Assembly: GCF_004912275.1 (NCBI RefSeq)
Contig: NZ_STGY01000083.1
Coordinates: forward strand, 186,001 to 250,000
Length of the DNA: 64,000 bases
Source: Glycomyces buryatensis
Lineage (GTDB): Bacteria > Actinomycetota > Actinomycetes > Mycobacteriales > Micromonosporaceae
Reading direction: 5' to 3'
The notes beneath the pieces are model-generated. The model did not search any database. It was given only the letters and a program-made list of their open reading frames with translations, and had not been told where the DNA came from. Positions within the stretch are counted from its first letter, which is position 1; each line of letters opens with the position of its first letter. Below are positions 8,180-63,299 of this stretch, piece after piece. The position numbers and the translations under genes are program-made.

Positions 8180-8192
8180 GATTCCTCCGTCG

Positions 8193-11039: not shown

Positions 11040-11111
11040 CTTTGGGAGGCGTTGCGCGCAAATCCACCTGGTGGCCTACAAGAAAAATCCGCCTGGTCTT
11101 AGGCTCGCCGC

Positions 11112-46365: not shown

Positions 46366-46531
46366 GCCGGGCACTTCCACTTGGCGTTAGGAGGTTCGGA
46401 GCCACTTGTCGATCCGTCCGATTCCGGGCGGCAACACGCCGGACGGCCGTCTGAATACCCTGATCGCGCCCATCGGCACCCGTAGGATCGGCACATCCAC
46501 CGAGCACCTCAAGTCGTTCGAAGGAGCCGCA

Positions 46532-47644
46532 GTGAGAGTAGTGAGCGTCGTAGGGGCACGACCCCAGCTGGTGAAGCTCGGGGCGATCGCGGCGGCATTC
46601 GCCCACGATGTCGACGAGCACCGCATCGTCCACACCGGCCAGCATTACGACGCCGACCTGTCCGACGTGTTCTTCGCCGGACTCGACATCCCCGCCCCGG
46701 ACTACTCGCTCGGCGTCGGATCGGGCAGCCACGGCGCCCAGACCGGCGCGATGCTCGCCGCGCTCGATCCGATCCTCGCCGATGAGCGCCCCGACTGGGT
46801 TCTCGTCTACGGCGACACGAACTCGACCCTGGCCGGCGCGCTGGCAGCGGTCAAGCAGCACCTGCCCGTCGCCCATCTCGAAGCCGGGCTCCGCTCGTTC
46901 AACCGCAGGATGCCCGAGGAGCACAACCGCGTGCTCACCGACCACTGCGCCGACCTGCTGCTCGCCCCGACCCCGGAGGCCGTTCGGCACTTGCGGACCG
47001 AGGGTCTGGCCGACCGGTCGGTGTTCGTCGGCGACGTCATGGTCGACGTGTGCCTGCGCAACCGCGACGCCGTCCTAGCCGACACTGAGATGCGGCCGCG
47101 CCTGCCCGCCGGCATCGACCCCGACGAGCCGTTCCTGCTCGCCACCCTGCACCGGGCGGAGAACACCGATGACCCCGAGCGGCTGCGCGAGCTGCTTGAC
47201 GCGCTGGCCTCGCTGCCGCTGCCGGTGGCGCTCTTGGCGCACCCGCGGCTGGTCGCCAGGGCGGAACAGTACGGGCTCGACCTCGGCGCGGGAGCACTGC
47301 GAGCTGGACGTCCACTGCCGTATGCGCAGCTGGTGTCCGCGATCCTGGCGTCGGTCGGCGTGTTGACCGACTCGGGCGGGCTCCAGAAGGAGGCGTTCCT
47401 GCTCGGCCGGACCTGCACCACTCTGCGACGCGAGACCGAATGGGTCGAAACCCTCGCCGACGGCTGGAACGTGCTGGCGCCCGATCCGGGCGACGTGACG
47501 GCCGGTAAGTGGGCCGCACTCGCCACCCGACCCGCGCCGGACGTCAGACCGGCCTCGCCCTACGGCGAGGGCAAGGCGGCGTGGGAGGTCCTCGACGTGC
47601 TCCGCGGCGAGGCCCAGGGAGGCCGGGAGCTCGGGTGCGTCTGA
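46532..47644 (+). CDS. UDP-N-acetylglucosamine 2-epimerase (WecB-like)
   Basis: A 370-aa non-hydrolysing UDP-HexNAc 2-epimerase. Signature blocks are GARPQLVKLGAI (N-terminus), VYGDTNSTLAGAL, HLEAGLRSFNRRMPEEHNR and ATLHRAENTDDPERL, then LTDSGGLQKEAF for UDP binding. It interconverts UDP-GlcNAc and UDP-ManNAc or a 2-epimer of a derivative. The GTG at 46532 has GAAGGAG 6 bp upstream. It leads the polysaccharide locus and is followed by the sulfotransferase gene. Confidence 0.93.
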   Translation: MRVVSVVGARPQLVKLGAIAAAFAHDVDEHRIVHTGQHYDADLSDVFFAGLDIPAPDYSLGVGSGSHGAQTGAMLAALDPILADERPDWVLVYGDTNSTLAGALAAVKQHLPVAHLEAGLRSFNRRMPEEHNRVLTDHCADLLLAPTPEAVRHLRTEGLADRSVFVGDVMVDVCLRNRDAVLADTEMRPRLPAGIDPDEPFLLATLHRAENTDDPERLRELLDALASLPLPVALLAHPRLVARAEQYGLDLGAGALRAGRPLPYAQLVSAILASVGVLTDSGGLQKEAFLLGRTCTTLRRETEWVETLADGWNVLAPDPGDVTAGKWAALATRPAPDVRPASPYGEGKAAWEVLDVLRGEAQGGRELGCV

Positions 47645-47815
47645 TGACCGGCCGCAGCGATCTCGCCGACGCACTGATCGAAGACCGCCATGGCATTCCG
47701 TCCGCGTCTTCTCCACAAGAGCTCGATCGTCGTGGTCGCGAATATCGCAAGAGGACGTCCGCGAGGTAATCGCACCGCCAGACGCCGCCGTGTCCAAACC
47801 GAGAGACGACATCCA

Positions 47816-49075
47816 ATGCCGAGTTTCCCAGCCGGATCGACGCTTCTGCACGTTGGGCCGCCGAAGACGGGCACCACTTCGCTGCAAGACGCGCTCGACG
47901 CCGCCGACGAACGACTCCGTGAACTCGGGGTCGCCCTGCCCGGCGGCTGCAGCAATCCCACTGTCGCCGTGAACGGCGGAACCGGGGTGTTCAAAGGCCC
48001 CAACTACGATCAGGCCTGGCGGGGACTCGTGGACGCGGTGAAGCGGAGCGAGAGCCGCATCCAGGTGATCAGCAGCGAGCACTTCGCGCACGCACGTGCC
48101 GACGACGCGCGGCGAATCGTCGAGACGCTCGGCGGTCCGACGGTCCGCGTCGTCATCACGCTGCGACCGCTGCAGGAGATCCTCCCGTCGCTGTGGCAGC
48201 AGTTCGTCCAGTCCGGTGAGGCCGACCCCTTCCCGATCTGGCTCAAGCGGGTCCTGTCCGACCTGCCGACCGATGAGCACAGTGACCGGTACCTGACGCA
48301 GATCTGGCAGCGGCAGTACATCGAGCGCTGGGCCGCCGCGGCTGGGCCCCAGAACGTCACCGTGGTCGTCGTCGACCGGCACCGGCCCGAGGACCTGCTG
48401 CGCCAGTTCGAGACCATGATCGGCGTGTCCGAGGGGCTGCTCACCATCCCCGAGCGACGCCGCAACGAGTCGCTGAACCTCGCGGAGGTCGAGCTCCTCC
48501 AGGACTGCTACGCCGAGCTCCGCGATCTGGGATGGGCCAAGCACGACGCCCGCCGCTACCTGCTGTTCGGGGCCGCCACGCGGATCCGGACCACCCAGAC
48601 CCAGCGGCCGACGGCACGCGACATCGTCACCCCGGACTGGGCCCAGGAGCGGGCGGTGGAGCTCGGGACCGAGCTCGCCGCGCTGCTGCCGACGATGGGC
48701 GTCGACGTCGTCGGCGATCCCACGAGGCTCAGAGGGGCCGTGGTCAGGAAGAGCGTCGAGCCCATCCCGCTCGACTCCTCGGCCGCGGTCCAAGCCGTGA
48801 TCGGCGTCCTCCAGATCGCCGCGGAAGACCGCGACCTCGCCGCCAGATCACGCGAAGGGGAACAAAGCGAGACCGATCGGGCGCTCCGAGCCGCGACGAC
48901 CCACTCCAAACGCGTCGAGCGCGAGCTCCGAGCGGAGCGGGCCAAGGTTGAGGAGGCCTTGAGGCAGCGGGACGCGCTCGCTGCCATCCCGGACGCCGTG
49001 CGCACCCGTTCAGCGGAGCTGCTGCGCATCCTGCGGCGCCGCGCCATCCGGAAACTCTGGCCGCGAGCTCGTTGA
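47816..49075 (+). CDS. Sulfotransferase-family protein
   Basis: A 419-aa protein with a PAPS-dependent sulfotransferase fold. The 5'-phosphosulfate loop is HVGPPKTGTTSLQ (K17), and the 3'-phosphate region is VRVVITLRPLQEILPSLWQQ (about residues 118-137). A coiled-coil C-terminal extension follows from residue 330 (RVERELRAERAKVEEAL). The ATG at 47816 lies 172 bp after the epimerase stop; no strong Shine-Dalgarno is seen. It could sulfate the polysaccharide made by this locus, which is inference from position. Other sulfotransferase-fold enzymes are possible. Confidence 0.75.
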   Translation: MPSFPAGSTLLHVGPPKTGTTSLQDALDAADERLRELGVALPGGCSNPTVAVNGGTGVFKGPNYDQAWRGLVDAVKRSESRIQVISSEHFAHARADDARRIVETLGGPTVRVVITLRPLQEILPSLWQQFVQSGEADPFPIWLKRVLSDLPTDEHSDRYLTQIWQRQYIERWAAAAGPQNVTVVVVDRHRPEDLLRQFETMIGVSEGLLTIPERRRNESLNLAEVELLQDCYAELRDLGWAKHDARRYLLFGAATRIRTTQTQRPTARDIVTPDWAQERAVELGTELAALLPTMGVDVVGDPTRLRGAVVRKSVEPIPLDSSAAVQAVIGVLQIAAEDRDLAARSREGEQSETDRALRAATTHSKRVERELRAERAKVEEALRQRDALAAIPDAVRTRSAELLRILRRRAIRKLWPRAR

Positions 49076-49167
49076 GGACCCGGCGCGTCGCCCGGCGAGA
49101 CGCCGGATTGTCGCGCCGGCTCCATGGCTGAGGAACGACCGACGGGGGCCTCAGCCCTCGATGGAGT

Positions 49168-52100
49168 TCAACGCTCACCGTCGAGGAACCGGCCGAGCAC
49201 CGCGGCCGTCAATCGTCCATCATGGACGACACGTGCGTAACGGGTGGAGGCCCGGCCGATCTCGCGAGCGCGATCCCGGTCCTCCAGGAGCGAGAAGAGC
49301 GCCTCGGCCAAGGTCGGCGGGGTCGCGTTGACGATCGGCAGTTCGGGCCCGTATCGCTCGGCGGAGGTCTCGCCGATGTAGGCGATGACCGGCCTGCCGG
49401 CCGCCATCGCCTCGCAGCCGAGCGTGCCGTAACTGCCGATGCCAATCTGATCGATGACGATGTCGGCGGCGGCGATGTGCTCGCGCATCCGCGAGTGCGG
49501 CACGTTCTCCAGCATCCGGAATTCGATCACACCCCGCTCGTGCAGGTCGCTGAGCACCGGCATGGCCTCCTGGGTGCCCTTGGTCCAGCGTCGTGACGGG
49601 GCGTGCAGCACCACCGGGACGGCGCGTTCCATGACCGGGGACGAGCACTGCCAGAAGTCGACGTCCACCACCAACGGCGCCCAGACCGCCTCGGGCAGGT
49701 CGTCCAAGAGATCCGGGGTCGTCACGTAGATCGGGCAGCCACTCTCACGCGCGACCTCTCCATTATGTCCGGTGATCGTCACCAACTTCTGAAAGAGGTC
49801 GTCAGGGGCGTGCCGAAAGGCCGACCACTCGTGGCGCTCCAGGTGCTCCCGGGGCCGCCGCACCTCGCTCCCGTGGGAGAGCAGCGCCGTGGTCATGCCC
49901 ATATTGCGCAGCATCGGCAGATCGGCGCCGAAGTCGTGGCCGTTGAGCCGCCCGAAGGCGGGCCGGAAGGCGTCGATCAGCAGGTGGGTATATGAGGCGA
50001 CCCGCTGCACCTGTTCGAGCTGGTGGCTCTCGGTGAACATGGTGGCGCGATCCACCCGGACGTCGGCGGGATAGCCCCGTGCGTCCCCTTCAGTGACGAT
50101 CTCAACGCCAACTTCGGGCCGGGCTTGGCACAGTGCTCGGGCGAAACTGCTCAGCTGGCCGGCGAAGTTCGCGGTCCCCATGCCCAGTCGAACCTCACGG
50201 TGGCCTGTCGGGGGCCACGGTGTGGCGCTGCCGAGTCGGAAGTCGGCGGCCGCGGCGGCCAGCTCGTAGCTGCCGGCCAGGGCTTTCTCGACCGCCATGG
50301 CGAGGCTGCCCGGATCGTCCGCCGTGTAGAGCTCACCGACTCGGTAGTGCGAGAACAGCCGTTCGACAGCCTCGGACCGGGCGACGACTACCGGGGTGCG
50401 TGCCTGCACGAAGCGGTAGACGGCCGGCGGCACCTGTCCTTCCGGCACCGAGGTTCCGACGATCCCGACGTCGGCCGCGGCGAGCAGCTCCCGCGGGTCG
50501 CCGTCACGGGTGACCGGGCGGATCCGTTCGTCGAGACCGGGATATTCGGCGCCGTCGATCGAATGAATCGTCATCAGGCGCCCCGTCGGGAGCTTTTCGA
50601 GCGCGGCCACGGCTGTCCCCAGCGCGTCCTCGTTCTCGAGTTCGCCGTACACGGCCAGGAGCGGCACATCGTCGGGACAGTCAATCGTGCCGCGGATGCC
50701 GCGCGCGACGTCAACAGCGTGGCGCTGCTCGACCTGGGCGAGGCGGACGGCGGCCCCGTGACGCGGGCGGCACCCGAGTCGCTCGTAGAGCTCGCAGTAG
50801 CGCTCAACCTGCCGCTCCCAGGAACGATCATCGAGGACCGCTGGGTTCCGGTAGGCGCTTTGGTAGGCCTGCTTGTCGCTGATGACCTTGCGCAGCGCGG
50901 CGGCCAGGGAGGCCGGTTCGGAGGGGTCGAAAACTTCGCCGTGTCCCAGCTCGGCGATCTCGGCGGCCATAGCCGGAAGGTCCGATACGACCAGCGGCAG
51001 ACGGGCGTGCATGTACTCGAAGTACTTGTTCGGCAGTGCGACCTCGTGGTTGAGGATGCCCGTTCGCATCGGGTGGATCCCGACGTCGGCGGTGCTCATG
51101 AACCGGGGCAGCACCTCATACGGCACATAGGTCATGAGGTGCAGCCGATCGGCGAGGCCGCTCTCGTCGCCGAGTTCGATGAGCGACTTCATGTAGGGGG
51201 AAGTCAGGGAATTGACGATGAAGGCCATGTGGACTTCGGGCAGATCCGTCAGGGCCTCGATGATCACCTCGAGGTTGCGCTCGGGGTTGGCGCCGCCGCA
51301 GTAGACGGCCAGCGGCGTCTCGGAGTCCAGGCCGCAGGCGGCACGCACGTCGGGGAATTCGAGGTCCGCATCGTCCTGGTCGCCGCATGAACGGTTGGCG
51401 GCATTGAGCACCACGGTGGGTCGGCGCTCCAGGTCGTACTCGCGCTCCAGCATCTCGGCGATCGCCGGCGAGACCGTGACGACCTCGTCGGCGAAGCCGA
51501 TGTGCTCGCGCTCGTAATCGGAGAGGGCGGCGAGCTGGTCGGGAGGGAAATTGTCGCAGCCGGGGATGTATTCGTGCGCGTCATAGACGATCTTGACCGG
51601 CTTCCCTTCGCGCTCCAAGTGGATCTTGACACGGGCGGCGATGCCGAGGGGACGAATGTCGTGGGCGTGGATGACGTCGGGTTCCAGGCGCAGTATGGCG
51701 CCGCGCAGGGCCAGTTCGAAGCGGCGGTTGACGTGGTCGATCGCGCGCCACGAACGCGCGCCGGTCAGCGTCCTGCGGGTCCACAGCTCGAGCCGGGAGA
51801 TCAGTGGATGCGGCACGCGGCCGAACTTGAGGGCGGCGGCGGTCTGCCTGGTGCGGAGGTCGAGCCAGCTCCGCTCGAGCTTGCCGCGGGCCTGGGCGGC
51901 CAGGGCGCTGGTAGGGCCGGTTCTGACACCGCGGGTGCGCCGCACCCGCATCCGACGTCCGTATCGGAGAGCTTCGACGTCGATCCAACCCAGTCGCTTG
52001 CGCCTCTCGGCGAGCGTCACCTCGGCCCAGGAATGGTAGGCGAGTGGGTAGCGCATGTGCTTGGCATGGTCGGCCCACCGTTTGGGAGGGGGCAGTTTCG

Positions 52101-52296
52101 GGATGGGAAGTCGCAACACGTGGACGTCTCCGTGCTGGTATTCCTCGGTGCGATTGCCGGTGGTGACGCCCAGGAGGTGAACCTCCAGGCCCTGTTCGGC
52201 CAGCGATCGCGCGGACTTCTGCACTCGCGAGTCGCCCTCGATTCCGTTGGCGACCACCATGACGACCCGTTTCATCTGAGCTCGGTCCTCTGCCAT
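49168..52296 (-). CDS. Double-module glycosyltransferase fusion
   Basis: A 1042-aa protein with two glycosyltransferase modules. Module 1 (residues about 7-490) is a GT4 enzyme opening RVVMVVANGIEGDSRVQKSA, with LAVYCGGANPERNLEVIIEA and a donor site near PNKYFEYMHARLPLVVSD. Module 2 (about 690-1040) starts LGMGTANFAGQL and ends with IGIGSYGTLGCEAMAAGRPV, another GT-B C-domain. The middle region (500-690) is a second, degenerate GT4-like domain. GGAGGGATC precedes the ATG at 52296. It converges with the sulfotransferase gene and follows another GT gene in the same direction. Confidence 0.85.
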   Translation of the reverse strand: MAEDRAQMKRVVMVVANGIEGDSRVQKSARSLAEQGLEVHLLGVTTGNRTEEYQHGDVHVLRLPIPKLPPPKRWADHAKHMRYPLAYHSWAEVTLAERRKRLGWIDVEALRYGRRMRVRRTRGVRTGPTSALAAQARGKLERSWLDLRTRQTAAALKFGRVPHPLISRLELWTRRTLTGARSWRAIDHVNRRFELALRGAILRLEPDVIHAHDIRPLGIAARVKIHLEREGKPVKIVYDAHEYIPGCDNFPPDQLAALSDYEREHIGFADEVVTVSPAIAEMLEREYDLERRPTVVLNAANRSCGDQDDADLEFPDVRAACGLDSETPLAVYCGGANPERNLEVIIEALTDLPEVHMAFIVNSLTSPYMKSLIELGDESGLADRLHLMTYVPYEVLPRFMSTADVGIHPMRTGILNHEVALPNKYFEYMHARLPLVVSDLPAMAAEIAELGHGEVFDPSEPASLAAALRKVISDKQAYQSAYRNPAVLDDRSWERQVERYCELYERLGCRPRHGAAVRLAQVEQRHAVDVARGIRGTIDCPDDVPLLAVYGELENEDALGTAVAALEKLPTGRLMTIHSIDGAEYPGLDERIRPVTRDGDPRELLAAADVGIVGTSVPEGQVPPAVYRFVQARTPVVVARSEAVERLFSHYRVGELYTADDPGSLAMAVEKALAGSYELAAAAADFRLGSATPWPPTGHREVRLGMGTANFAGQLSSFARALCQARPEVGVEIVTEGDARGYPADVRVDRATMFTESHQLEQVQRVASYTHLLIDAFRPAFGRLNGHDFGADLPMLRNMGMTTALLSHGSEVRRPREHLERHEWSAFRHAPDDLFQKLVTITGHNGEVARESGCPIYVTTPDLLDDLPEAVWAPLVVDVDFWQCSSPVMERAVPVVLHAPSRRWTKGTQEAMPVLSDLHERGVIEFRMLENVPHSRMREHIAAADIVIDQIGIGSYGTLGCEAMAAGRPVIAYIGETSAERYGPELPIVNATPPTLAEALFSLLEDRDRAREIGRASTRYARVVHDGRLTAAVLGRFLDGER

Positions 52297-52403
52297 AACC
52301 CGATCCCTCCATACCGTCGCCATCGCGCTTTCCCCGAAGCGTGGACGACTACCCCATTAGATGTGAGTGATAATCATTCGATTTCGTTGACGAGCTTCGT
52401 CGG

Positions 52404-53939
52404 TCATCGACCCTTCTCTCCGAGTACCTTGCGGTACAAGCTGTGCAGATGTGCCGACTGCTTCTCCCAGGTCCATTCGTCCACCAGCCCCGGCCGCTCA
52501 TAAGCAGCGCGGTAGTGGCCGGGGTCCGAGAGCACCGTCTTGACGGCCCGCACGAAGTCCTCGGTGTCCCCGGCCCGGAAAACCTCGCCCTGGCCGGTCT
52601 CTCGCACCGTCTCGGCGATGGTCTTGACGTCGCTGACGACGAGCGGGAGCCGTGCGTGCGAGTAGTCGAAGAACTTGGTGTTCAACGAGATCTCGTGGTT
52701 CTGGTGGTGATGGTTGGGGCTGACGCCGATGTCCGCCGCGGCAATGAAGGGCACGATCTGCCGGTGCGGCACGTGGGGAAGCACGTGCAGCCGGTCCGCG
52801 ACACCGAGCCGCTCGGCCTGGGCCACCAGGCCGCGCACGTACGACCAGTTGTGGTGGGAGACCACAAGCGCGGCGTGGAGGTTCGCGACCGCCGGAAGGG
52901 CGTCGACCATGATGTGCAGCCCGCGCTGGACGAGCGGTACGCCGCTGTAGACCATCAGGGGCGTGTCCGGGCCGATCCCGCACAGGCCGCGCAGGTCCGG
53001 TATCTCCTCGTCTTCGCCGGGGCTTTCGCTCAGGTCGGGGGCGTTCATGACCACCGTCGGCCGCTCGGTCAGGCGGTGCCGCTCCACCAGGAGGTCTGCG
53101 AGCGGTTCGGAGACGGTGACGACTGCGTCGGCCCAGGGGGCGTATTCGTTCTCGTGCGCGATCTGGGCGGGCTTCCACCAAGGATGGTTGACCCAGGGTT
53201 TCATGCCCGGCAGGTATTCGTGGACGTCCCACACCAGTTTGACCGGGCGGCCCTTCGCGCGGGCCCGGACCGCCTCCCGAGCGCCGACGCCGAGCATCTG
53301 AAAGTCGTTGGCGTGGATCAAGTCCGGTTTCAGTTGATCGATGACGGGGCCAAAGGCGAGTTCGAAGTCCCACAGGCCCGGATCCAGCCGTCGCCACGCT
53401 CGGTCGCCCATGACGATCTTCCAGAATGCCATCGACAAGTGGTCGAGTGGCGCGTTCAATTCCTTGCGCCGCCGGCGCAGCCGCTCGGTGCGGCGGGCGC
53501 GCAGATCGGCCCAGTCCCCGGCCAGACGCACCGTCACCCGCCTGGGAAGGAGCGCCGCGCGGCGCAACCGGGCGGCCACCGGGCTCTGGCGACGCGTGGC
53601 GATCACCTCGCGCGCCTTCATGAGATCGATCTCGGCACGCCGTGCCTCGAGCTGACGCTGCCGGTAGATCTCCATGGGCCCCAACGGGTATGCGATGGGG
53701 TCGCGCAGCCAGTGGCTGCGCAGTTCGTGGCGGCGGCGCGCGAGACCGCGCCGCATCGGGACCAGCCTCACCTCGGCTTCACCGAGCCGCCACATCCTCG
53801 GCTCGGTATCCGGCGAACGGCCGAGCAGGACGACCTCCCAACCTGCGGCGGCCGCGTGCTGCGCCTCCTTCTGGACCCGTGAGTCACCCTCGACCCCGTT
53901 CTGCACCAGCATCACAATGCGGCCCCGGCTGTTGTCCAT
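52404..53939 (-). CDS. Family 4 glycosyltransferase
   Basis: A 511-aa cytosolic or membrane-associated GT4. It opens GRIVMLVQNGVEGDSRVQKE, very like module 1 of the neighbouring fusion, so the two genes are paralogues. Other blocks are WDVHEYLPGM, then MVYSGVPLVQRGLHIMVDAL, and NTKFFDYSHARLPLVVSD (nucleotide-sugar site). I chose the ATG at 53939 with CGGGAG upstream; a longer in-frame start has no support. A gap of 107 bp separates it from the fusion gene. Confidence 0.9.
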   Translation of the reverse strand: MDNSRGRIVMLVQNGVEGDSRVQKEAQHAAAAGWEVVLLGRSPDTEPRMWRLGEAEVRLVPMRRGLARRRHELRSHWLRDPIAYPLGPMEIYRQRQLEARRAEIDLMKAREVIATRRQSPVAARLRRAALLPRRVTVRLAGDWADLRARRTERLRRRRKELNAPLDHLSMAFWKIVMGDRAWRRLDPGLWDFELAFGPVIDQLKPDLIHANDFQMLGVGAREAVRARAKGRPVKLVWDVHEYLPGMKPWVNHPWWKPAQIAHENEYAPWADAVVTVSEPLADLLVERHRLTERPTVVMNAPDLSESPGEDEEIPDLRGLCGIGPDTPLMVYSGVPLVQRGLHIMVDALPAVANLHAALVVSHHNWSYVRGLVAQAERLGVADRLHVLPHVPHRQIVPFIAAADIGVSPNHHHQNHEISLNTKFFDYSHARLPLVVSDVKTIAETVRETGQGEVFRAGDTEDFVRAVKTVLSDPGHYRAAYERPGLVDEWTWEKQSAHLHSLYRKVLGEKGR

Positions 53940-54052
53940 GGCGAAACTCCCGTTAGATGGCATCGGCAGTCTCGCAGCGTATCCACACAACGGCCCACGA
54001 GAGTGAAGACACGCGCGGCGCCGAATTTCGATAGCCGAACGGGAATAGAGCC

Positions 54053-55006
54053 CTACCGGTCCCCCATGTCGTCGGCGAAGCGACGCTGCCACGTTTCGAA
54101 CCGCGCATCACCTGTGATCTCGAAGAGCGCAGCCTGTTGCTTCACAGTTCGAGCCGGGCCATAGTCGTCATGGCACGGCGGCGTGAGGTCGTAGCAGTTG
54201 ATCTGCCCGGGCCGCCGGAAGGCCGGGAGATAGGCGAGTACCGACTCGGCACCACGCAGAATCGCGTCCTCGAGCGTCGGGTCGCGGTCATGCCGATCCC
54301 ATAGGTAGTAAAGCCCGGTGACGGCATGGATGTGACCATTGAGGATCATTGACTCGGTTTGCGGGACCTCCTCATACCAACGGAAACCCTCCGGAGTCTC
54401 GCGGGCGAACCACAGGTCCTCGCGTGGGCCCTCGACGCCGTAGGCGGCCGCCAGTTCCCAAGCCGTGTCGAGGTACCGGCTGTCGGGCCAACATTCATGC
54501 AGCATTACCGTGCCTGCGATCACGCTGCCGTTTCCCAGGCCAGAAGTCCATCCGCGAGGGATGGTGACACCCTCGTAGTTGTGTTCGAACTTATAGACCA
54601 CGAATCGTGCGCCGTCGACCACTTTGGTAAATTCGAGCATTCGATCGAACAGTTCCTCAGCGATTCTTTCGGCATTCTCGCTGGGCGGGTTGTCCCGTTG
54701 CCATGCGCACAGTAGTGCGGCGTTGCGGACGTAGTACCACGGCGCGAAAGGTTGCTTATACCCTTCAGGCCAAGGCATCGGCAGCGCTTCGTCGAGCGGA
54801 TCGTCGGTCGGCTGCCAACCCGTTGGTGCTTCGGCCGACGCCAATTGCTCCGGGTCCTCTCCCGGAACAAGCTCGAGTTCGCCGACATCCGCAGGAGCTG
54901 CCGCCCGCAGCGCCTCATCCGCATCAGACGAGCAGCCACCCGAAAATACCAGTAGCGCAACGATTGCAATCGTTGCGGAGACAGATATTCGCAAAGAACT
55001 CTTCAT
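54053..55006 (-). CDS. Lipoprotein with D-glucuronyl C5-epimerase-like domain
   Basis: A 317-aa predicted lipoprotein (signal SVSATIAIVALLVFSGGC with lipobox Cys near residue 25). The C-terminal 200 residues match the D-glucuronyl C5-epimerase C-terminal domain pattern: PRGWTSGLGNGSVIAGTVML and later VPQTESMILNGHIHAVTGLY. In heparan and alginate-type systems such enzymes invert C5 of uronate residues in polymers. Here it would act outside the cell. Residue-level proof is lacking. GC is lower than the neighbours (AT-rich codons), which suggests transfer. It heads a leftward run with the two GT genes. Confidence 0.72.
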   Translation of the reverse strand: MKSSLRISVSATIAIVALLVFSGGCSSDADEALRAAAPADVGELELVPGEDPEQLASAEAPTGWQPTDDPLDEALPMPWPEGYKQPFAPWYYVRNAALLCAWQRDNPPSENAERIAEELFDRMLEFTKVVDGARFVVYKFEHNYEGVTIPRGWTSGLGNGSVIAGTVMLHECWPDSRYLDTAWELAAAYGVEGPREDLWFARETPEGFRWYEEVPQTESMILNGHIHAVTGLYYLWDRHDRDPTLEDAILRGAESVLAYLPAFRRPGQINCYDLTPPCHDDYGPARTVKQQAALFEITGDARFETWQRRFADDMGDR

Positions 55007-55234
55007 GATTGCACCCACTTGACTGTCAGCGGCAAGAAACTGGATGAAGCGATTTCAGTGGCCCATTATAGATAAAACGCATCGCCGTGAGGCTATCGTC
55101 GAGGCCGTGTCTATGAATTCGGTGTCCAGTCGCGGATGATCGCCAGCTGGATCTGGAAGTGCTTGTCGAACGAGCCCATGCCGATTTCGGCGGCCTGGGT
55201 GACCTCCTGGCCCCGTTCCAACGAAAGGCCTCCC

Positions 55235-55591
55235 ATGGCGAAGCGGACCGAAGTGATCCTCATCGACGACATCGACGGCAGCCCCGCCGAAACAACGGTC
55301 AAATTCGGCGTCGACGGACAGCTCTACGAGATCGATTTGTCCGGAGCTAACAACGATGAACTCCGCCGCGGGTTGGCGAAATTCATTCTGAACGGAACAC
55401 GTCTCGGCAAGGTCCAAGCAGCTAAGAACCGCGGCCCCGTTCCCACTGGGATCCGTCAGCCGGCCGGTATCAACCGCGGCAGGAACATCGCAATCCGCAA
55501 CTGGTGCAAGCAGCAAGGCATCGAAGTGAACTCGCTCGGGCGAATCCCGCAGGCAGTCATTGCCAAGTTCGACGCTGCCCACGCGGCCTGA
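55235..55591 (+). CDS. lsr2: Lsr2-type nucleoid-associated xenogeneic silencer
   Basis: A 118-aa Lsr2. The N-terminal dimerisation domain starts AKRTEVILIDDIDGSPAET and continues FGVDGQLYEIDLS; the C-terminal DNA-binding domain has the RGR minor-groove hook in AGINRGRNIAIRNW followed by LGRIPQAVIAKFDAA. Lsr2 binds AT-rich DNA and silences acquired genes, as H-NS does. GAAAGG precedes the ATG. It lies inside the polysaccharide island, so it is probably an additional copy to the housekeeping one. Confidence 0.92.
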   Translation: MAKRTEVILIDDIDGSPAETTVKFGVDGQLYEIDLSGANNDELRRGLAKFILNGTRLGKVQAAKNRGPVPTGIRQPAGINRGRNIAIRNWCKQQGIEVNSLGRIPQAVIAKFDAAHAA

Positions 55592-56878: not shown

Positions 56879-57634
56879 TCATTGAAGGTTCGTGGGTTCG
56901 AGTCTCGCACGGTCGGCCTGTCGCGGTCGATGCTCGTGAAGTGCGTCCCCGCGCCTCATGCGAGCACTGGCCTTCGCGTGTCTCGGGTGTCCGTTCAGTC
57001 CGTCCCCACTCACCACCACCCAGCACGACCGCAGCAGAATGAGCAGGTCCAGCCGCAGGCTCTGCGTCACCGAATACATGAGATCGTGATCAGTACGCCT
57101 GTCCCAGTCGAGACTGTTCCGACCTACCGTCTGCGCCCATCCCGTCAATCCCGGTAGCACGGCGAGCCTCCCCAACTCACGGGAACCATAGCCCTGGGCC
57201 CGTTCGGGCAGATGCGGACGCGGACCGACCAGGCTCATCTCTCCCCTGGCGACGTTGATCAGCTGCGGCAGCTCGTCAACCGAGAGCCGTCGCAGAATCC
57301 TGCCCACCCTGGTGATCCACGCGGCGTCGGGGACCTCCGACTCCGGTGCCGCGCAGGTGCTCATGGTCCGGAGCTTCAGCATCCTGAACGGTCGGCCCCG
57401 CAGGCCGATGCGAACCTGACGGAAGAAGACGGGCCGCCCGTCCTCGCAGAGGATCGCCACTCCGGCGACGGCGACCACAACGAGAGCCGGTATCGCGATG
57501 AGGCACAGCACCGTCCAGTCCAACAAGCGTTTGCCCCTATAGGAGTGGGGAGCGAGTGGGACGAGCGTTCGAGAATCGACGGCTGCCGGTCGACGCCTTG
57601 CCGCCCGCTTCCCTAGACGTTTTGACGCGCACAT
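56879..57634 (-). CDS. Initiating sugar transferase (WcaJ/PglC-type phosphoglycosyl transferase)
   Basis: A 251-aa bacterial sugar transferase that moves a sugar-1-phosphate from UDP-sugar onto undecaprenyl phosphate, the first step of repeat-unit assembly. Motifs are KRLLDWTVLCLIAIPALVVV (reentrant helix), PVFFRQVRIGLRGRPF, then KLRTM, and DELPQLINVARGEMSLVGPRP, followed by LPGLTGWAQ. GGAGGAATT precedes the ATG at 57634. The last 40 residues lie beyond the usual family end and may come from read-through into rearranged DNA. Confidence 0.9.
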   Translation of the reverse strand: MCASKRLGKRAARRRPAAVDSRTLVPLAPHSYRGKRLLDWTVLCLIAIPALVVVAVAGVAILCEDGRPVFFRQVRIGLRGRPFRMLKLRTMSTCAAPESEVPDAAWITRVGRILRRLSVDELPQLINVARGEMSLVGPRPHLPERAQGYGSRELGRLAVLPGLTGWAQTVGRNSLDWDRRTDHDLMYSVTQSLRLDLLILLRSCWVVVSGDGLNGHPRHAKASARMRRGDALHEHRPRQADRARLEPTNLQ

Positions 57635-57756
57635 TGAACAAATTCCTCCAAAGTCGAGTGTTCTGCCTACTAGCGACACTGCTCAACTTATAGTCCCTTC
57701 TACGCAAAAGGGTCTGAATACTTCGGTTGGTGGGCGACGGAAAGGGCACAGCGGTC
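57635..57756. promoter_or_regulatory. Divergent promoter region of the capsule genes
   Basis: A 122-bp gap between the leftward sugar transferase and the rightward cap operon. AT-rich tracts (TTATAGTCCC at about 57690 and CTGAATACTT at about 57713) are candidate -10 elements in either direction. No clear operator repeat. Confidence 0.4.
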
Positions 57757-59040
57757 GTGTCGGATGGAACGAGAACTGCTTTCGGAAATCCTGAACGTGA
57801 AGGGATGCGGCTGGGTGTCATCAGCCCCTGTTACGACCCCGAGACCGGTTCGGCGGCAGTCGCCGGAGGGATCTGCCGTTCCCTCGCAAAGCTCGGCCAC
57901 GACGTGCATGTGCTCACCGGTTTCCCCAACTACCCGACCGGCGCGATCTATCCCGGCTACCAGATGAAGCGCTACCTCTACGAGCACCGGGCCGGCGTGC
58001 ACGTCCACCGGGTCCCCCTGCTGCCGAGCCACGACCGCTCGGCTCTCAGACGGGCACTCACCTACCTGTCCTTCGCGGCTTCGGCGTCCGCGAAGTGGAA
58101 CGTCCTGCGCTCGATGGACGCCTGGCTGGTGATCTCCTCGCAAGCCACGGTGGCCTTCCCGGCCATCCTTGCGCGGCGGCTCTTCGGCCGCCCTTACGTG
58201 CTCTACATACAGGACCTGTGGCCCGATACCGTCCTCGCAAGCGGGTTCATCCGCCAGGGCCGACTGCTCGACCTGACGGCGCGCGCCATCAGCGGGTTCT
58301 GCGAGGCCTCCTATCAACGGGCCTCGGCCGTCGCCGTGACCGCTCCGGGGATGGCCGCCGTCCTGCGCCAGCGGAGCGTCCCCCCGGAGAAGATCACGGT
58401 GGTGCCCAACTGGGTCGACGAGGGGATCTTCCGTCCCGTTCCCCGCGATGAGCGACTGGCAGCCGAAACCGGCCTCGACGGGTTCGTCGTCATGTACGCC
58501 GGCAGCCTCGGAGATGTTCAGGGTCTCGAGACCGCCATCAAGGCACTGAAGTTCCTTCCCGATCTGCCCGACCTCCGCTTGGCGTTCGTCGGCAGCGGTG
58601 TCGCAGAGGCGAGGCTGCGCGCGCTGGCAGAAGGGGACGAGCGGGTGCGCTTCCTCGGTTCCCACCCCGTCGAGCGCACGGTGCAGCTCATGGCGCTCAG
58701 CGACGTCCAGCTGGTCAGCCTGCAGGACCGACCGCCGTTTCACCACATCCTGCCCAGCAAGCTTCAGGCCGCGATGGCCTGCGGAAAACCGATCATCGCC
58801 TCCGCCCCCGGCGATGCCGCGCGCGCCGTCCTCGAGTCGCGCGCCGGTCTCGTGGCGCCTCCTGGCGACCCCGCTGAACTTTCATCGGCCATGCGACTGC
58901 TGCACGGCTTCAATCCCCTGATCCGCGAGGCGATGGGGCACTTCGGAAGGGAGTACTACATGGACGAGATGTCGGCTCAAGTGGGCGGCTCGAGGCTGTC
59001 GGACCTCGTGACCTATGCGCTCGGAGGGAACCGGGGATGA
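57757..59040 (+). CDS. WbuB-like family 4 glycosyltransferase
   Basis: A GT4 of about 427 aa. N-domain: MRLGVISPCYDPETGSAA, then VHVLTGFPNYPTGAIYPGY; C-domain: VMYAGSLGDVQGLETAIKAL and the donor site LPSKLQAAMACGKPIIAS. The N-terminal pattern and HILPSK are typical of WbuB/WbjE-type L-FucNAc transferases. It overlaps capE by 4 bp, which fits L-FucNAc as donor. The GTG at 57757 has GGAAAGGG 10 bp upstream; ATG at 57805 is an alternative. Confidence 0.85.
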   Translation: MSDGTRTAFGNPEREGMRLGVISPCYDPETGSAAVAGGICRSLAKLGHDVHVLTGFPNYPTGAIYPGYQMKRYLYEHRAGVHVHRVPLLPSHDRSALRRALTYLSFAASASAKWNVLRSMDAWLVISSQATVAFPAILARRLFGRPYVLYIQDLWPDTVLASGFIRQGRLLDLTARAISGFCEASYQRASAVAVTAPGMAAVLRQRSVPPEKITVVPNWVDEGIFRPVPRDERLAAETGLDGFVVMYAGSLGDVQGLETAIKALKFLPDLPDLRLAFVGSGVAEARLRALAEGDERVRFLGSHPVERTVQLMALSDVQLVSLQDRPPFHHILPSKLQAAMACGKPIIASAPGDAARAVLESRAGLVAPPGDPAELSSAMRLLHGFNPLIREAMGHFGREYYMDEMSAQVGGSRLSDLVTYALGGNRG

Positions 59041-60080
59041 AGGAGGATCTGGCTGGCAAGACGGTGCTCATCACCGGCGGCACAGGAACGTTCGGCAAGA
59101 CGATGGTCGCTCGGCTGCTCGCCTCCGACTGCGCCGAGATAAGGGTGCTGAGCCGCGACGAGGCCAAGCAGGACGACATGCGGCTGCGGCTCCGCGACGA
59201 ACGGCTGCGCTTCTACATCAGCGACGTCCGCGACCACGACGGTGTCCTGCGTGCCTGCACGGGCGCGGACCACGTCTTCCATGCCGCGGCGTTGAAGCAG
59301 GTGCCCTCCGGCGAATTCTTTCCGCTCGAGGCGGTGCGCACCAACGTCATGGGCAGCGCGAACGTCATCGACGCCGCACGGGCCGCGAACGTGCGCAGCG
59401 TGGTCTGCCTCAGCACCGACAAGGCCGTGTACCCGATCAACGCGATGGGCATGTCGAAGGCGCTCATGGAAAAGGTCGCCCAGGCCTACGCCCGCATGGT
59501 GTGCACTGGTGACACGGTCGTCTCGCTGGTGCGTTACGGCAACGTGCTGTGCTCACGCGGCTCGGTGGTACCGGCGTTCGTGCGGCTCATCAAGCAAGGG
59601 TCGCCGCTGACCATCACCAACCCGAACATGACGCGCTTCCTCATGTCGATCAATGATGCGATCCGACTGGTGGAACACGCATTCAACGCCTCACGACCCG
59701 GCGATCTCTACGTGCACAAGGCCCCGGCGAGCACCGTCGAGGACATCGCGCGGGCGGTGGCGCGCATCTTCGATGTCGAGCTCAAAGCCGACATCATCGG
59801 CACCCGCCACGGCGAGAAGCTGTTCGAGACGCTGGTGGGCGACGAGGAGTCCGCGCGGGCGGAGGACCAAGGCGAGTTCTTCCGAATTCCACTCGACCAG
59901 CGGGGTTTGAACTACTTGCCGACCGGCGGCAGCGGCCGTGGAGCTCCGGAAGCAACTGCCGTGGGCTACACCTCCCACAATGCCAGGAGACTCGACGAGG
60001 ACGCCGTCGTCAAGCTCCTGCTGCAGACCCCGGAGTTCCGGTCCGAGATGCCGACCCAGCGCGTCCCGGAGACGGTATGA
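59037..60080 (+). CDS. capE: UDP-GlcNAc 4,6-dehydratase/5-epimerase (CapE/FnlA type)
   Basis: A 347-aa short-chain dehydrogenase fold enzyme. NAD is bound by ITGGTGTFGKT; the active site has MGMSK in place of the usual Y-x-x-x-K, the hallmark of CapE/FnlA enzymes, in STDKAVYPINAMGMSKALME. It begins UDP-L-FucNAc synthesis from UDP-GlcNAc. The C-terminal tail has GRGAPEATAVGYTSHNARRL typical of CapE. Overlaps the GT and capF genes by 4 bp each. Confidence 0.93.
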   Translation: MKEDLAGKTVLITGGTGTFGKTMVARLLASDCAEIRVLSRDEAKQDDMRLRLRDERLRFYISDVRDHDGVLRACTGADHVFHAAALKQVPSGEFFPLEAVRTNVMGSANVIDAARAANVRSVVCLSTDKAVYPINAMGMSKALMEKVAQAYARMVCTGDTVVSLVRYGNVLCSRGSVVPAFVRLIKQGSPLTITNPNMTRFLMSINDAIRLVEHAFNASRPGDLYVHKAPASTVEDIARAVARIFDVELKADIIGTRHGEKLFETLVGDEESARAEDQGEFFRIPLDQRGLNYLPTGGSGRGAPEATAVGYTSHNARRLDEDAVVKLLLQTPEFRSEMPTQRVPETV

Positions 60081-61192
60081 GGATCGCCGTCACCGGACCC
60101 GAGGGATTCCTCGGCTGGCATCTGCGCTGCCTGGCATTCAGCCGCGGCATCGCATGCGTCCCCATCGCCAGGTCGCTGCTCGGCGACCCGGAGCGGCTCG
60201 ACGCCGCACTCGACGGCGTCGACGCCGTCATTCACTGCGCAGGCGTCAATCGCGGCACCGATGCGGAGGTCACCGACGGCAATGCCGAGGCGGCCGGCCG
60301 CCTCGCCGAAGCCGTGCGGCGCCTCGATCGTCCGGTGCGGGTGGTCTACGCCGATTCGGTCCGCCGCAGTGACGACACCGCTTACGGGCGGGCCAAGCGC
60401 CGTGCCGCGGCGACGCTCGCCGGGACCGGTGACACCGCAGCGGCGTTCTCGGACGTCGTCCTGCCCAATCTGTACGGCGAGCACGGGCGGCCGCACTACA
60501 ACTCGTTCGTTGCGACCTTCTGCCACGAGTTCGCCCAGGGACGGCGTCCGACGGTCGTCCAAGACGGCGAAGTCGCGCTGCTGCACGCCCAGGAGGCGGC
60601 TGCAGTGCTGCTCGAGGAGGCGGGCGCGTCGGGGCGCCGGTTCGTCGAGCCGAAAGGCGAGCCGCGATCGGTGACCGAGACGGCGGCACTGTTGGAGGAG
60701 TTCGAAGTCGAATACCGGGACGGCAATCTGCCGGAGCTCACCGGCCGGTGGCGGACCACGCTGTTCAACACCTACCGTTCGCACCTGTTCCCCGCCCGCT
60801 ATCCGGTACCGCTCACGCAGCACGTCGACGGCCGCGGCGCGCTCGTGGAATGCGTCAGAGTCTCCGCTGCCGGGGGCCAGGCGTTCGTCTCCTCGACCGT
60901 CCCCGGGGCGGCGCGAGGCGAACACGTGCACTTGCGAAAGTTCGAGCGCTTCGTGATCGTGTCGGGGAAAGCCGAGATCGCCGTGCGCCGGCTCTTCTCC
61001 GACCGCATCGTGCGGTTCCAGGTCGACGGCGCCGATCCCGTGGCCGTGGACATGCCGACGATGTGGGCGCACCGGCTGACGGCGTTCGGGGACCAACCGG
61101 CCCTGGGGTTCTTCTGGAGCAACGAGCGGTACACACCGTACGACGCCGACACCTTCGCCTGCCCGGTCGACGACCCGAGCGAGGCGACATGA
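60077..61192 (+). CDS. capF: CapF-type bifunctional reductase/3-epimerase
   Basis: A 371-aa two-domain enzyme. N-terminal SDR: VTGPEGFLGWHL (NADPH loop) and AYGRAKRRAA (Y-x-x-x-K). C-terminal cupin (from residue about 255): GEHVHLRKFERFVIVSG with zinc-binding His residues and PTMWAHRLTAFGD. CapF does 3-epimerisation in the cupin and 4-reduction in the SDR domain, the second step to UDP-L-FucNAc. Overlaps both neighbours as ATGA. Confidence 0.93.
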   Translation: MRIAVTGPEGFLGWHLRCLAFSRGIACVPIARSLLGDPERLDAALDGVDAVIHCAGVNRGTDAEVTDGNAEAAGRLAEAVRRLDRPVRVVYADSVRRSDDTAYGRAKRRAAATLAGTGDTAAAFSDVVLPNLYGEHGRPHYNSFVATFCHEFAQGRRPTVVQDGEVALLHAQEAAAVLLEEAGASGRRFVEPKGEPRSVTETAALLEEFEVEYRDGNLPELTGRWRTTLFNTYRSHLFPARYPVPLTQHVDGRGALVECVRVSAAGGQAFVSSTVPGAARGEHVHLRKFERFVIVSGKAEIAVRRLFSDRIVRFQVDGADPVAVDMPTMWAHRLTAFGDQPALGFFWSNERYTPYDADTFACPVDDPSEAT

Positions 61193-62331
61193 CCAAAGTG
61201 CTCACCTTCGCCGGGACGCGGCCCGAGCTCATCCGCCTGTCGCGGGTGATCGACCGTCTCGCGGCCACGCTCGACCACAAACTGGTCCACACCGGCCAGA
61301 ACTGGGACCCGCTGCTGCGCGACGTCTTCTTCGCGGAACTAGGGCTGCCCGAGCCGGACCACCAGTTCGCCGTGGACCCGTCCACGCTCGGGCGCGCCCT
61401 CGCCGACATCCTCGTGAACGCCGAGCAGGCCATCGCCGCCGAGCGGCCCGACGCGGTCCTCGTGCTCGGCGACACCAACAGCTGCATCGCGGCGCTCATG
61501 GCCCGCAGGATGCGGATCCCGGTCTACCACATGGAGGCCGGTAACCGGTGCTTCGACCTGAACGTGCCTGAAGAGACCAACCGGAGCCTCATCGACCATG
61601 TCGCCGACTTCAACCTGGTCTACACCGAACACGCGCGACGGAACCTGCTCGCCGAGGGGATCCATCCGCAGCGGATCCTCCTGACCGGTTCCCCGATGCG
61701 CGAGGTCCTGGACCACCATCGCGCCTCGATCGCGGCCTCGGACGTGCTGCGCCGGCTCGGCGTCCGCAGCGGCGAGTACTTCGTGGCCAGCGCCCACCGG
61801 GAGGAGAATGTCGACGATCCCGGCCGGTTGCTGAGCCTCATCGCCTGCCTTCGCTCGGTGCACGTCAAGTGGGACCTGCCCGTACTGGTGTCGACCCATC
61901 CTCGGACCCGCAAACGGATCCAAGACCTGGTCGCCGACGCCGAACTCGACGGCGTGACGTTCTGCGAGCCGTTCGGCTTCTTCGACTACATACGGCTGCA
62001 ACAGGAGGCGCGCTGCGCGCTCTCGGACAGCGGCACCGTCAGCGAGGAGTCGGCGATCCTGGGCTTTCCGGCGGTGACGCTCCGAGACTCAATCGAGCGG
62101 CCCGAATCGCTCGACGCCGGGTCGATCGTCGCCACCGGGCTCGATCCGGCCGGGGTGGTCGAAGCGGTCGCGACCGTGGTCGCGCAGCACTCCCGGGAAC
62201 CGGTCGGCTGCGCCGCGGAGTACGAGATCGACGACACCTCCAGGCGCGTCGTCAACTTCATCCTGTCGACGGTTCGCAGGCACCACGAATGGGCCGGGAT
62301 CCGCACACGAACAGAGAGGACGGTGCATTGA
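61189..62331 (+). CDS. capG: CapG/FnlC-type UDP-HexNAc 2-epimerase
   Basis: A 380-aa non-hydrolysing 2-epimerase. Family blocks are LTFAGTRPELIRLSRVI, then VLGDTNSCIAALMARR, YHMEAGNRCFDLNVPEETNR, SAHREENVDDPGR and ALSDSGTVSEESAILG. FnlC/CapG members have exactly this GNRCFDLNVPEE form. It completes UDP-L-FucNAc by 2-epimerisation. Coupled to capF (ATGA) and to the following GT (ATTGA). Confidence 0.93.
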   Translation: MTKVLTFAGTRPELIRLSRVIDRLAATLDHKLVHTGQNWDPLLRDVFFAELGLPEPDHQFAVDPSTLGRALADILVNAEQAIAAERPDAVLVLGDTNSCIAALMARRMRIPVYHMEAGNRCFDLNVPEETNRSLIDHVADFNLVYTEHARRNLLAEGIHPQRILLTGSPMREVLDHHRASIAASDVLRRLGVRSGEYFVASAHREENVDDPGRLLSLIACLRSVHVKWDLPVLVSTHPRTRKRIQDLVADAELDGVTFCEPFGFFDYIRLQQEARCALSDSGTVSEESAILGFPAVTLRDSIERPESLDAGSIVATGLDPAGVVEAVATVVAQHSREPVGCAAEYEIDDTSRRVVNFILSTVRRHHEWAGIRTRTERTVH

Positions 62332-63299
62332 GCGGAGTGCTCCTCGACACCGCCGGGGGCGGCGTCGGCGGCGCCGCCCGCTGGCGGCGCGAGCTCGACG
62401 ACTACCTCGCCGGCGCCACGACGCGGCCAACCGTGATCGGACGTTCGCAGTACCTGACTCCGGCCTGGCTGGTCCGTCGCGAGTCGAAGGCCAGAGGCGC
62501 CGACGTCGTCGTGGCGGCGAACTCGGCCTCGTTCGCCCTCAGCGGCACGCAACGCCGGGTGCTGCTGCGTAACGCCCTGCACTTCCTGTATCCGCATGAG
62601 GAGCACCTGCTGCGGCCGATGCCGCGCAGTTTCAAGGCCCAGATCCCGGTGATCCGCGGGCTGCTGTCCCGGGCGGACCTGATCGTCGCGCCCACTTCGG
62701 TGATGGCGGAGCGGGTCGTACACCACGTGCGCGGGGTGCGCGGCCGGATCGTGGTCCGCGCCCATCCGACGAGTCCCGCCGGGCCTCGGCGTCCCACCGA
62801 CCGGCCGTTCGTGCTCGTGCCGGTCATGCCTGCCCCGTATAAGGATCTGGTGTCGGAGTTGCGGGCCCTGCTGGAGGCGGTCGACCGCACCGGGCGGGAT
62901 CTGCGGGTCGTGGTCACCGCCGCCCCGGAGCAGCTGCCGACGGACGTCGCCGCCCACCCGACGGTGGAAGCACTCGGGACGGTGCCGACGGCCACTACGG
63001 CTCGACTGTGGAGGTCGGCGGCGGCCGCGTTCTTCCCGTGCACTGTGGAGGCGTTCGGCTATCCGCTCGCGGAGGCCAGGGTCCACGGCGTGCCGGTGCT
63101 GTCGCCGGACGGCCCGCAGGCCCGCGAGATCGCCGGCCGCACCCTGGTCCCCTATCGGTCGGGTGACCGCAACAGCCTGGCCGACGCTCTGGAGCAATGC
63201 GCCGAGCCGGTCGTGCCCGAGCCCCGCGCCTTCGACGCCGAGGCCTACTTCCGGTGGCTGCTGGGGGAGTCCACCGAAGCCAAGGGCGGCAGGACATGA
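62328..63299 (+). CDS. Glycosyltransferase of the polysaccharide locus
   Basis: A 323-aa GT-B-type glycosyltransferase. It starts SGVLLDTAGGGVGGAARWRR, has LPTDVAAHPTVEALGTVPTA, and the donor site AAAFFPCTVEAFGYPLAEAR (about residues 230-250) resembling GT4. The TTG start at 62328 overlaps the capG stop, with GAGAGGAC 8 bp upstream. Donor and acceptor are unknown. It overlaps the flippase start by 4 bp. Confidence 0.8.
   Translation: MSGVLLDTAGGGVGGAARWRRELDDYLAGATTRPTVIGRSQYLTPAWLVRRESKARGADVVVAANSASFALSGTQRRVLLRNALHFLYPHEEHLLRPMPRSFKAQIPVIRGLLSRADLIVAPTSVMAERVVHHVRGVRGRIVVRAHPTSPAGPRRPTDRPFVLVPVMPAPYKDLVSELRALLEAVDRTGRDLRVVVTAAPEQLPTDVAAHPTVEALGTVPTATTARLWRSAAAAFFPCTVEAFGYPLAEARVHGVPVLSPDGPQAREIAGRTLVPYRSGDRNSLADALEQCAEPVVPEPRAFDAEAYFRWLLGESTEAKGGRT

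Follow-up and report, generated by a model that had tools for sequence, protein, structure and literature searches.

Gene content of the window

We analysed a 64,000-nucleotide stretch (hereafter called the window) of a 5.82-Mb Glycomyces genome, contig C14 positions 186001-250000, in which a gene for a probable sulfotransferase using 3′-phosphoadenosine 5′-phosphosulfate (PAPS) and a gene for a lipoprotein with a D-glucuronyl C5-epimerase domain (PF06662) lie 5 kb apart, in convergent orientation, with two glycosyltransferase genes between them. The sequence-only reading of this DNA had proposed a heparan-like module, in which the pair would make an epimerised, sulfated uronate polymer that is processed outside the cell. 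The genes that it named exist at their places, the lipoprotein 54053-55006 being the ATG form of 54053-55018. By computation we established the gene content, the sulfotransferase fold, the PF06662 membership, the changes of catalytic residues in the lipoprotein, and the lack of conservation of the pair. The central genes are as follows.

46406-47644, + strand: WecB-type non-hydrolysing UDP-N-acetylglucosamine (UDP-GlcNAc) 2-epimerase, for the supply of UDP-N-acetylmannosamine (UDP-ManNAc) (TIGR00236, 256.1 bits; equivalog cut-off 210.15)
47816-49075, + strand (open reading frame, ORF, from 47690): probable PAPS sulfotransferase (P-loop, R159-x7-S167, fold of the AlphaFold 2 model)
49168-52323, − strand: 1051-residue protein with two glycosyltransferase domains, GT4-type (PF00534/PF13692 at residues 327-490, PF13524 at 912-1032)
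52404-54092, − strand: GT4 glycosyltransferase, directly downstream of the PF06662 gene (Pfam)
54053-55018, − strand: exported lipoprotein with a divergent D-glucuronyl C5-epimerase C-terminal domain (PF06662, 52.4 bits)

The UDP-N-acetylhexosamine (UDP-HexNAc) 2-epimerase and the two large glycosyltransferases of the earlier reading are thus present, the former above the WecB equivalog cut-off and the latter both of the GT4 type. The first glycosyltransferase region of 49168-52323 resembles 52404-54092 (35% identity over 509 residues).

Fold of the sulfotransferase candidate

The ORF of the sulfotransferase candidate (47690-49075, + strand) encodes 461 residues, and Met43 at 47816 is the likely start. 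It matches no Pfam family above cut-off (PF17784 scores only 14.5 bits, against a cut-off of 22.8), no NCBIfam model at E≤0.01, and no PDB sequence at E≤1. The family profile finds a sole PDB match at E≤10, namely NDST1 (E 1.6), and none of the five Glycomyces homologues (0/5) reaches any Pfam cut-off. We base the assignment on the structure model and the sequence motifs. The P-loop, HVGPPKTGTT (K59-T63), is accompanied by R159-x7-S167, a spacing that we take to be that of the sulfotransferase 3′-phosphate-binding motif, with the P-loop as the 5′-phosphosulfate counterpart. In a 43-sequence alignment drawn from 42 of the 80 loci described below, T60, T62, and R159 are invariant, E130 is invariant or nearly so, and K59, G61, T63, and S167 are conserved in at least 90% of the sequences.

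The AlphaFold 2 model has a mean predicted local distance difference test score (pLDDT) of 79.9, with 238 of the 461 residues at 90 or above and with disordered ends. When VIA-align rows at most 1 Z apart are treated as ties, the leading group consists of the Alicyclobacillus sulfotransferase 3rnl (Z 15.8, root-mean-square deviation 4.2, 228 residues), NDST1 (Z 14.9-15.6), and the 3-O-sulfotransferases 5, 3, and 1 (Z 14.5-15.3). Other sulfotransferases lie at Z 11.6 and lower; all 23 rows between Z 15.8 and 10.0 are sulfotransferases, with 199-238 residues aligned, and adenylate kinases first appear at Z 9.6. Foldseek returned four matches at E≤0.001 (9.3e-6 to 9.3e-4), all of them sulfotransferases with the same leaders. 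In its predicted structure, the protein has the sulfotransferase fold that the sequence-only reading had assigned to it, nearest to the heparan N-sulfotransferase (NST)/3-O-sulfotransferase (3-OST) class and tied with one bacterial enzyme. The fold by itself does not establish which substrate is used.

A bifunctional ATP sulfurylase-APS kinase gene on contig C77 indicates that PAPS can be made in this genome. PAPS is cytosolic, and a signal peptide is not evident by eye in the sulfotransferase; for these reasons, sulfation would precede export. The idea of a polymer processed outside the cell cannot, therefore, hold for sulfation, while it is retained for the lipoprotein, which would act there.

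The lipoprotein and its altered catalytic residues

The lipoprotein comprises 321 residues, with the ATG form starting at 55006, and its PF06662 score of 52.4 bits against a cut-off of 23.3 bears out the family call that had been made from motifs. In phmmer searches it matches human GLCE (6hzz, E 1.1e-5) and zebrafish GLCE (E 5.4e-5). The N-terminus, MKSSLRISVSATIAIVALLVFSGGC, reads as a lipoprotein signal, with the lipobox judged by eye, and the length of 321 residues leaves no room for the beta domains of GLCE.

What has become of the catalytic site? The catalytic residues of GLCE are E499, Y500, N510, Y560, and Y578 (PMC13308652), and all five fit when 90 is added to the 6hzz chain index to obtain the human GLCE number. 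The lipoprotein keeps E499, N510, and Y560 as E217, N227, and Y276; V218 is aligned to Tyr500, and the Tyr578 column holds G287, with Y286 immediately before it. The loss of the catalytic tyrosines, which had been named as evidence that would speak against the epimerase, is therefore partial, extending to Tyr500 and the Tyr578 column and sparing Tyr560. We mapped these positions over 41 distinct PF06662 segments; duplicates were collapsed into one row, and a single protein contributes several of the rows as fragments. Among the lettered rows, E499 is Glu in 35/39, N510 is Asn in 37/39, and Y560 is Tyr in 37/37. Tyr500 is Tyr in 26/39 and is replaced by V, C, A, or S in 13/39, the window included; Y578 is Tyr in 34/35, and the sole exception is the window lipoprotein. 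The change of Tyr500 to Val recurs in the second PF06662 gene of this genome (on contig C71) and in two further genomes, one of them from Glycomyces (G002; the other is G339). With Tyr500 lost and the Tyr578 loop altered, the sequence indicates that the lipoprotein is probably not a standard glucuronate C5-epimerase, and it is best read as a diverged relative of the GLCE domain rather than as a proven C5-epimerase.

The lipoprotein was folded as a single sequence, because scans for relatives (genome contigs with the sequence, viral sequences with the alignment) found none. The resulting model (pLDDT 45.5) is too poor to place Y286, and a fold search with it gave nothing at E≤0.001; GLCE ranks 15th (E 0.039), and GH76 enzymes, a methylmannose polysaccharide hydrolase, and cellobiose 2-epimerase stand ahead of it.

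An Lsr2 (xenogeneic silencer) gene at 55136-55591, inside the capsule locus, adjoins the lipoprotein gene, which is low in GC. The GC content at third codon positions is 0.69 in the lipoprotein gene; on one side of it, the four genes spanning 46406-54092 reach 0.84-0.88, and on the other, the two nearest genes have 0.73-0.78. Lsr2 beside a low-GC gene suggests a horizontally acquired, silenced segment. The lipoprotein gene could thus be a passenger, in decay or recently acquired, that contributes nothing to the polymer; the altered active site would also fit this explanation. Moreover, a close relative was found neither in 396 genomes of the phylum (three others match, at 23-31% identity) nor in 22 genomes of the genus (two others match, at 27-32% identity). 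However, the frame is intact over 321 codons, carries a signal peptide, and overlaps the GT4 ORF on the same strand, and the protein retains the residues that are invariant in a 17-sequence alignment (for example, W157, N227, and Y276). We regard the passenger as doubtful.

The GT4 family of 52404-54092 occurs within about 1.5 kb of PF06662 in 5/24 loci. We considered it as a dedicated partner of PF06662 and rejected it, since this glycosyltransferase family is strong, and often multi-copy, in 20/22 Glycomyces genomes, so that the link may reflect abundance.

Distribution of the pair and of the sulfotransferase family

Is the pairing conserved? A scan with the sulfotransferase family found 327 relatives, the best 80 of which were retained as loci with flanks of at most 10 kb (less where the contig was short); gene calls in these GC-rich loci are mechanical, and some neighbouring ORFs are in the wrong frame. 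A PF06662 gene is present in none of the 80 loci. Conversely, the window sulfotransferase family is absent from 20 PF06662 places fetched from the family listing (one of them short, at 15.7 kb; short BLAST matches filtered out) and from two more from the genus. Other sulfotransferase families near PF06662 were sought by one P-loop pattern that covers some of the motifs, and its other matches were dismissed by eye as wrong-frame; members of such families may therefore be present near PF06662. Among 300 genomes of the family, PF06662 occurs in 27, the sulfotransferase in 60, and both in 2, as compared to 5.4 expected at random, where the overlap is computed from two lists on the assumption that each covers the same 300 genomes. 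The two genomes are that of the window and that of G. tenuis, in which the genes lie on different contigs. Within the sample tested, the pairing is peculiar to this genome, and the heparan-like pair fails as a conserved module (0/80 sulfotransferase loci, 0/20 PF06662 loci, and 2/300 genomes with both).

The sulfotransferase family keeps other company. In the Streptomyces sp. V4I2 locus L060 (299-16647), a relative 38% identical to the window protein is flanked by RmlD, RmlC, two TarS-linker GT2 proteins, IspD-SDR (TarIJ-like), a PF04464 CDP-glycerol-transferase-family protein, and PhoD, with obg about 3 kb off. A reading of L060 as a non-capsule setting, taken from obg, was dropped when the gene scan showed the teichoic-type genes. 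In BLAST searches with the L060 proteins, from which short matches were filtered out, a relative of the TarIJ-like protein, the PF04464 protein, or the TarS-linker GT2 is found in 57 of the 80 loci, and TarIJ-like and PF04464 relatives occur together in 52. This company favours a surface-glycopolymer substrate in general, and not a uronate polymer in particular.

In L055 (G. salinus) and L056 (Glycomyces sp. L485), the family member directly follows the ATP synthase genes and is accompanied in each locus by two PF13469 sulfotransferases; the Pfam matches of L056 also include GT2, WecG, MatE, and an acyltransferase. The ORFs noted in these polysaccharide-like loci are L055:15044-16063, L055:19187-20071, L056:14196-15221, and L056:18356-19240. 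Judged by their genes, the two loci are candidates for a multiply sulfated polymer. In seven other loci from actinobacteria and Chloroflexi (L058, L061, L062, L086, L091, L132, and L134), the sulfotransferase profile matches 3-4 ORFs per locus, and the gene may be tandemly repeated there.

The surrounding polysaccharide locus

A Wzx/Wzy-type surface polysaccharide locus covers the window from 46.4 kb onward and continues for about 11 kb along the contig beyond it (L003). An initiating transferase, Wzx, a Wzz/kinase, an LCP protein, and glycosyltransferases are all present, in agreement with the capsule-type locus that had been proposed. The window portion is best read as the first section of a Wzx/Wzy-type locus for a capsule or exopolysaccharide in this Glycomyces species. 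The remaining genes are as follows.

55136-55591, + strand: Lsr2-type nucleoid/silencer protein, real start probably near 55237 (PF11774, 79.0 bits; PF23359, 40.5 bits)
56879-57679, − strand: initiating sugar-1-phosphate transferase (PF02397, 173.9 bits)
57727-59040, + strand: glycosyltransferase, WcaI-like (PF13579, 78.5 bits; NF007640, 182.5 bits, below the 276 cut-off)
59037-60080, + strand: FnlA/CapE-like UDP-GlcNAc 4,6-dehydratase/epimerase (PF02719, 314.5 bits; TIGR04130, 397.2 bits, below the 730 equivalog cut-off)
60077-61192, + strand: FnlB/WbcJ-like reductase (PF14667, 122.7 bits; NF047837, 179.1 bits, below the 500 cut-off)
60748-62331, + strand, overlapping the preceding gene, true start later: WecB-family epimerase in the FnlC/CapG position (TIGR00236, 230.1 bits; cut-off 210.15)
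61869-63299, + strand, ORF start overlapping the preceding gene: glycosyltransferase (PF13692, 36.3 bits; cut-off 27)
63197-64000, + strand: start of the gene for a Wzx-type flippase, which continues past the window (L003:197-1582; PF01943, 68.5 bits; cut-off 28.2)
L003:4474-6132: Wzy-like membrane protein, called by eye (no Pfam match)
Beyond the window: more glycosyltransferases, an FkbM methyltransferase, a Wzz/tyrosine-kinase fusion, and an LCP ligase
Beyond the window: low-molecular-weight phosphatase, called by eye

The Fnl-like names are tentative, because the first two genes of the trio miss the NCBIfam equivalog cut-offs. At its far end, the locus has an ORF of the IS4/5-family transposase type (L003:12153-12677; DUF4096, 77.8 bits) right behind the LCP ligase gene.

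Uronate supply

No UDP-glucose or UDP-ManNAc dehydrogenase gene was found on the contig of the locus (PF03721, E≤0.001). All three full-length PF03721 genes lie on contig C71, and two partial matches below the cut-off lie on C71 and C78. By best equivalog model, the C71 genes comprise one TuaD-like UDP-glucose dehydrogenase and two UDP-ManNAc dehydrogenases; all three score above the general subfamily cut-off and none above an equivalog cut-off. The uronate polymer of the sequence-only reading thus loses ground, given both the lack of a UDP-glucose dehydrogenase-type gene on the locus contig and the teichoic-type company that the sulfotransferase family usually keeps (57/80).

Contig C71 also carries a paralogous polysaccharide segment (L005, C71:116000-135000, at 3119-11218), with a nucleotide-sugar dehydrogenase, two GT4s, and a hexapeptide acetyltransferase. 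The second PF06662 protein of the genome is encoded in this segment; it has 250 residues, the Tyr500-to-Val change, and no match over the Tyr578 region. The WecB of C71 is 73% identical over 361 residues to that of the window (46406-47644), and the two GT4s are 64% and 55% identical to 52404-54092.

Could the pair nonetheless form a true glycosaminoglycan (GAG)-like module, with the lipoprotein as the epimerase of glucuronate, or of some other uronate, within a sulfated surface polymer, Y286 replacing Tyr578 and Tyr500 being dispensable? The PF06662 score above cut-off, the retained E499, N510, and Y560, the heparan NST/3-OST fold class of the sulfotransferase, the GT4 neighbours, and the TuaD-like nucleotide-sugar dehydrogenase elsewhere in the genome would all fit. 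However, Tyr500 is Val, the protein alone among 35 rows lacks Tyr at the Y578 column, no uronate dehydrogenase was found on the locus contig, and the pair recurs in no other locus tested. Furthermore, sulfation and epimerisation would occur on opposite sides of the membrane, in an order reversed with respect to heparan. Such a module is unlikely.

A further explanation places the lipoprotein in a subgroup defined by the Tyr500-to-Val change and acting not on glucuronate, but on N-acetylmannosaminuronate (ManNAcA), the WecB/WecC product; it is possible that this subgroup sees ManNAcA-type sugars. Each of the two PF06662 genes of the genome has the change and a WecB gene nearby, the two WecB proteins being 73% identical. 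About 4.6 kb from the C71 copy lies a nucleotide-sugar dehydrogenase gene for which, among the equivalog models, those of UDP-ManNAc dehydrogenases score better. Yet this dehydrogenase scores far below the equivalog cut-offs, and none was found on the window contig; the other 22 PF06662 loci lack a long match to the window WecB, and the C71 copy lacks a match over the Tyr578 region. We consider this assignment quite improbable.

Proposed model

We propose that the locus probably makes a sulfated, HexNAc-rich surface polymer of the Wzx/Wzy type, and that the diverged PF06662 lipoprotein, probably not a standard C5-epimerase, acts on or binds this polymer. First, the PF02397 transferase would start the lipid-linked repeat. 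The glycosyltransferases would then add HexNAc sugars; WecB would provide ManNAc, and the Fnl-like trio probably a sugar of the L-FucNAc type. As a member of a sulfotransferase family of surface polymers, the 47816-49075 protein would sulfate the repeat in the cytosol with PAPS, ahead of flipping by Wzx. After flipping, the repeat would be polymerised, and the LCP ligase would link the product to the wall. Finally, the PF06662 lipoprotein, which is predicted to be anchored outside and whose gene immediately precedes those of the GT4s on the same strand, would act on or bind the finished polymer, either as a changed epimerase for another uronate or as an inactive polymer-binding relative.

The model draws on the gene content of the locus, the fold and motifs of the sulfotransferase, the PAPS synthase gene, the surface-polymer genes near its relatives elsewhere, the PF06662 residue map, the GT4 neighbours of PF06662 (5/24 loci), and the second PF06662 gene on C71, which has the Tyr500-to-Val change and likewise lies by a WecB and GT4s of that family. 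Several observations weigh against it. The TM-scores of the Foldseek leaders are modest, at 0.33-0.36 by query and 0.23-0.60 by target. The 57 teichoic-type loci are mostly from Streptomyces and are thus not independent, and neither the window nor L003 contains a relative of the L060 teichoic-type genes at E≤1e-5 in BLAST. Distant relatives of the sulfotransferase lie in six loci of the family amid mixed genes, without relatives of the window capsule genes; neither Sat-CysC nor window capsule genes were found near them by BLAST. As for the lipoprotein, the loss of Tyr500 need not abolish activity, because this residue is replaced in 13/39 rows, and Y286 may fill the Tyr578 site. The sulfation, the order of the steps, the substrate, and the role of the lipoprotein are inferences in this model.

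In heparan, epimerisation comes before most O-sulfation. The order proposed here, cytosolic sulfation followed by the action of a surface lipoprotein, would be the reverse. Given this reversed order, the altered residues, and the lack of uronate genes on the locus contig, a copy of the heparan pathway is unlikely; a modified epimerase is possible, as is a bacterial “heparin”. A reverse-order GAG-like capsule, in which cytosolic sulfation by a heparan-fold enzyme would be followed by surface C5-epimerisation of a uronate or HexNAc-uronate in a rearranged GLCE site (with Tyr500 lost and a neighbouring Tyr serving for Tyr578), is very unlikely.

Relation to known systems

The lipoprotein resembles GLCE (6hzz, 4pw2) in that its C-terminal domain matches over the catalytic region, with E499, N510, and Y560 kept; it differs in the Tyr500-to-Val change, the Gly in the Y578 column, the 321-residue length without room for the beta domains, and the lipid anchor. 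Likewise, NDST1 and the 3-O-sulfotransferases are the nearest solved folds to the sulfotransferase model (Z 14.5-15.6), but the identity is 13-20%, the window protein falls below the Pfam cut-offs, and no signal peptide is evident by eye. The Streptomyces loci of the wall-teichoic-acid type (L060 and others) share the sulfotransferase family; their teichoic-type genes are absent from the window locus, and PF06662 is absent from theirs.

The wps-1 cluster of Actinoplanes missouriensis, like the Glycomyces locus, is an actinomycete Wzx/Wzy-type cluster with a sulfotransferase; it has two, one of them predicted to be of the heparan type, and a sulfated polysaccharide has been proposed as its product (PMC13390465). 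In A. missouriensis an ATP sulfurylase/APS kinase gene adjoins the cluster, and the word “epimerase” occurs 0 times in the text (PMC13390465). WpsH of that cluster might belong to the sulfotransferase family of the window; by BLAST, the six distant relatives mentioned above have neither Sat-CysC nor window capsule genes nearby. Halobacterium salinarum is a prokaryote that combines C5-epimerisation (by Agl32) and sulfation in one glycan, but Agl32 is not GLCE-like and the glycan is an N-glycan, not a capsule (PMC13308652). The synechan locus of Synechocystis makes a bacterial sulfated exopolysaccharide, and “sulfotransferase” and “wzy” both occur in its description; the host, however, is a cyanobacterium (PMC8205485).

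Implications

According to PMC13390465, bacterial sulfated polysaccharides had been reported only from cyanobacteria, and one is now proposed for an actinomycete; the sole identified bacterial glucuronyl C5-epimerase is, according to PMC13308652, that of Bermanella. Among the titles and abstract beginnings that we searched, no paper could be recognised as reporting the two enzymes together in a capsule locus of an actinomycete. A tractable set for new uronate epimerases is offered by the PF06662 genes of actinobacterial polysaccharide loci, among them the subgroup with the Tyr500-to-Val change. The sulfotransferase family, six scanned members of which reach no Pfam cut-off, deserves a family of its own. 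Its teichoic-type neighbours hint at sulfated wall polymers in Streptomyces; such a polymer is possible in these loci, which are perhaps a better lead than the window itself.

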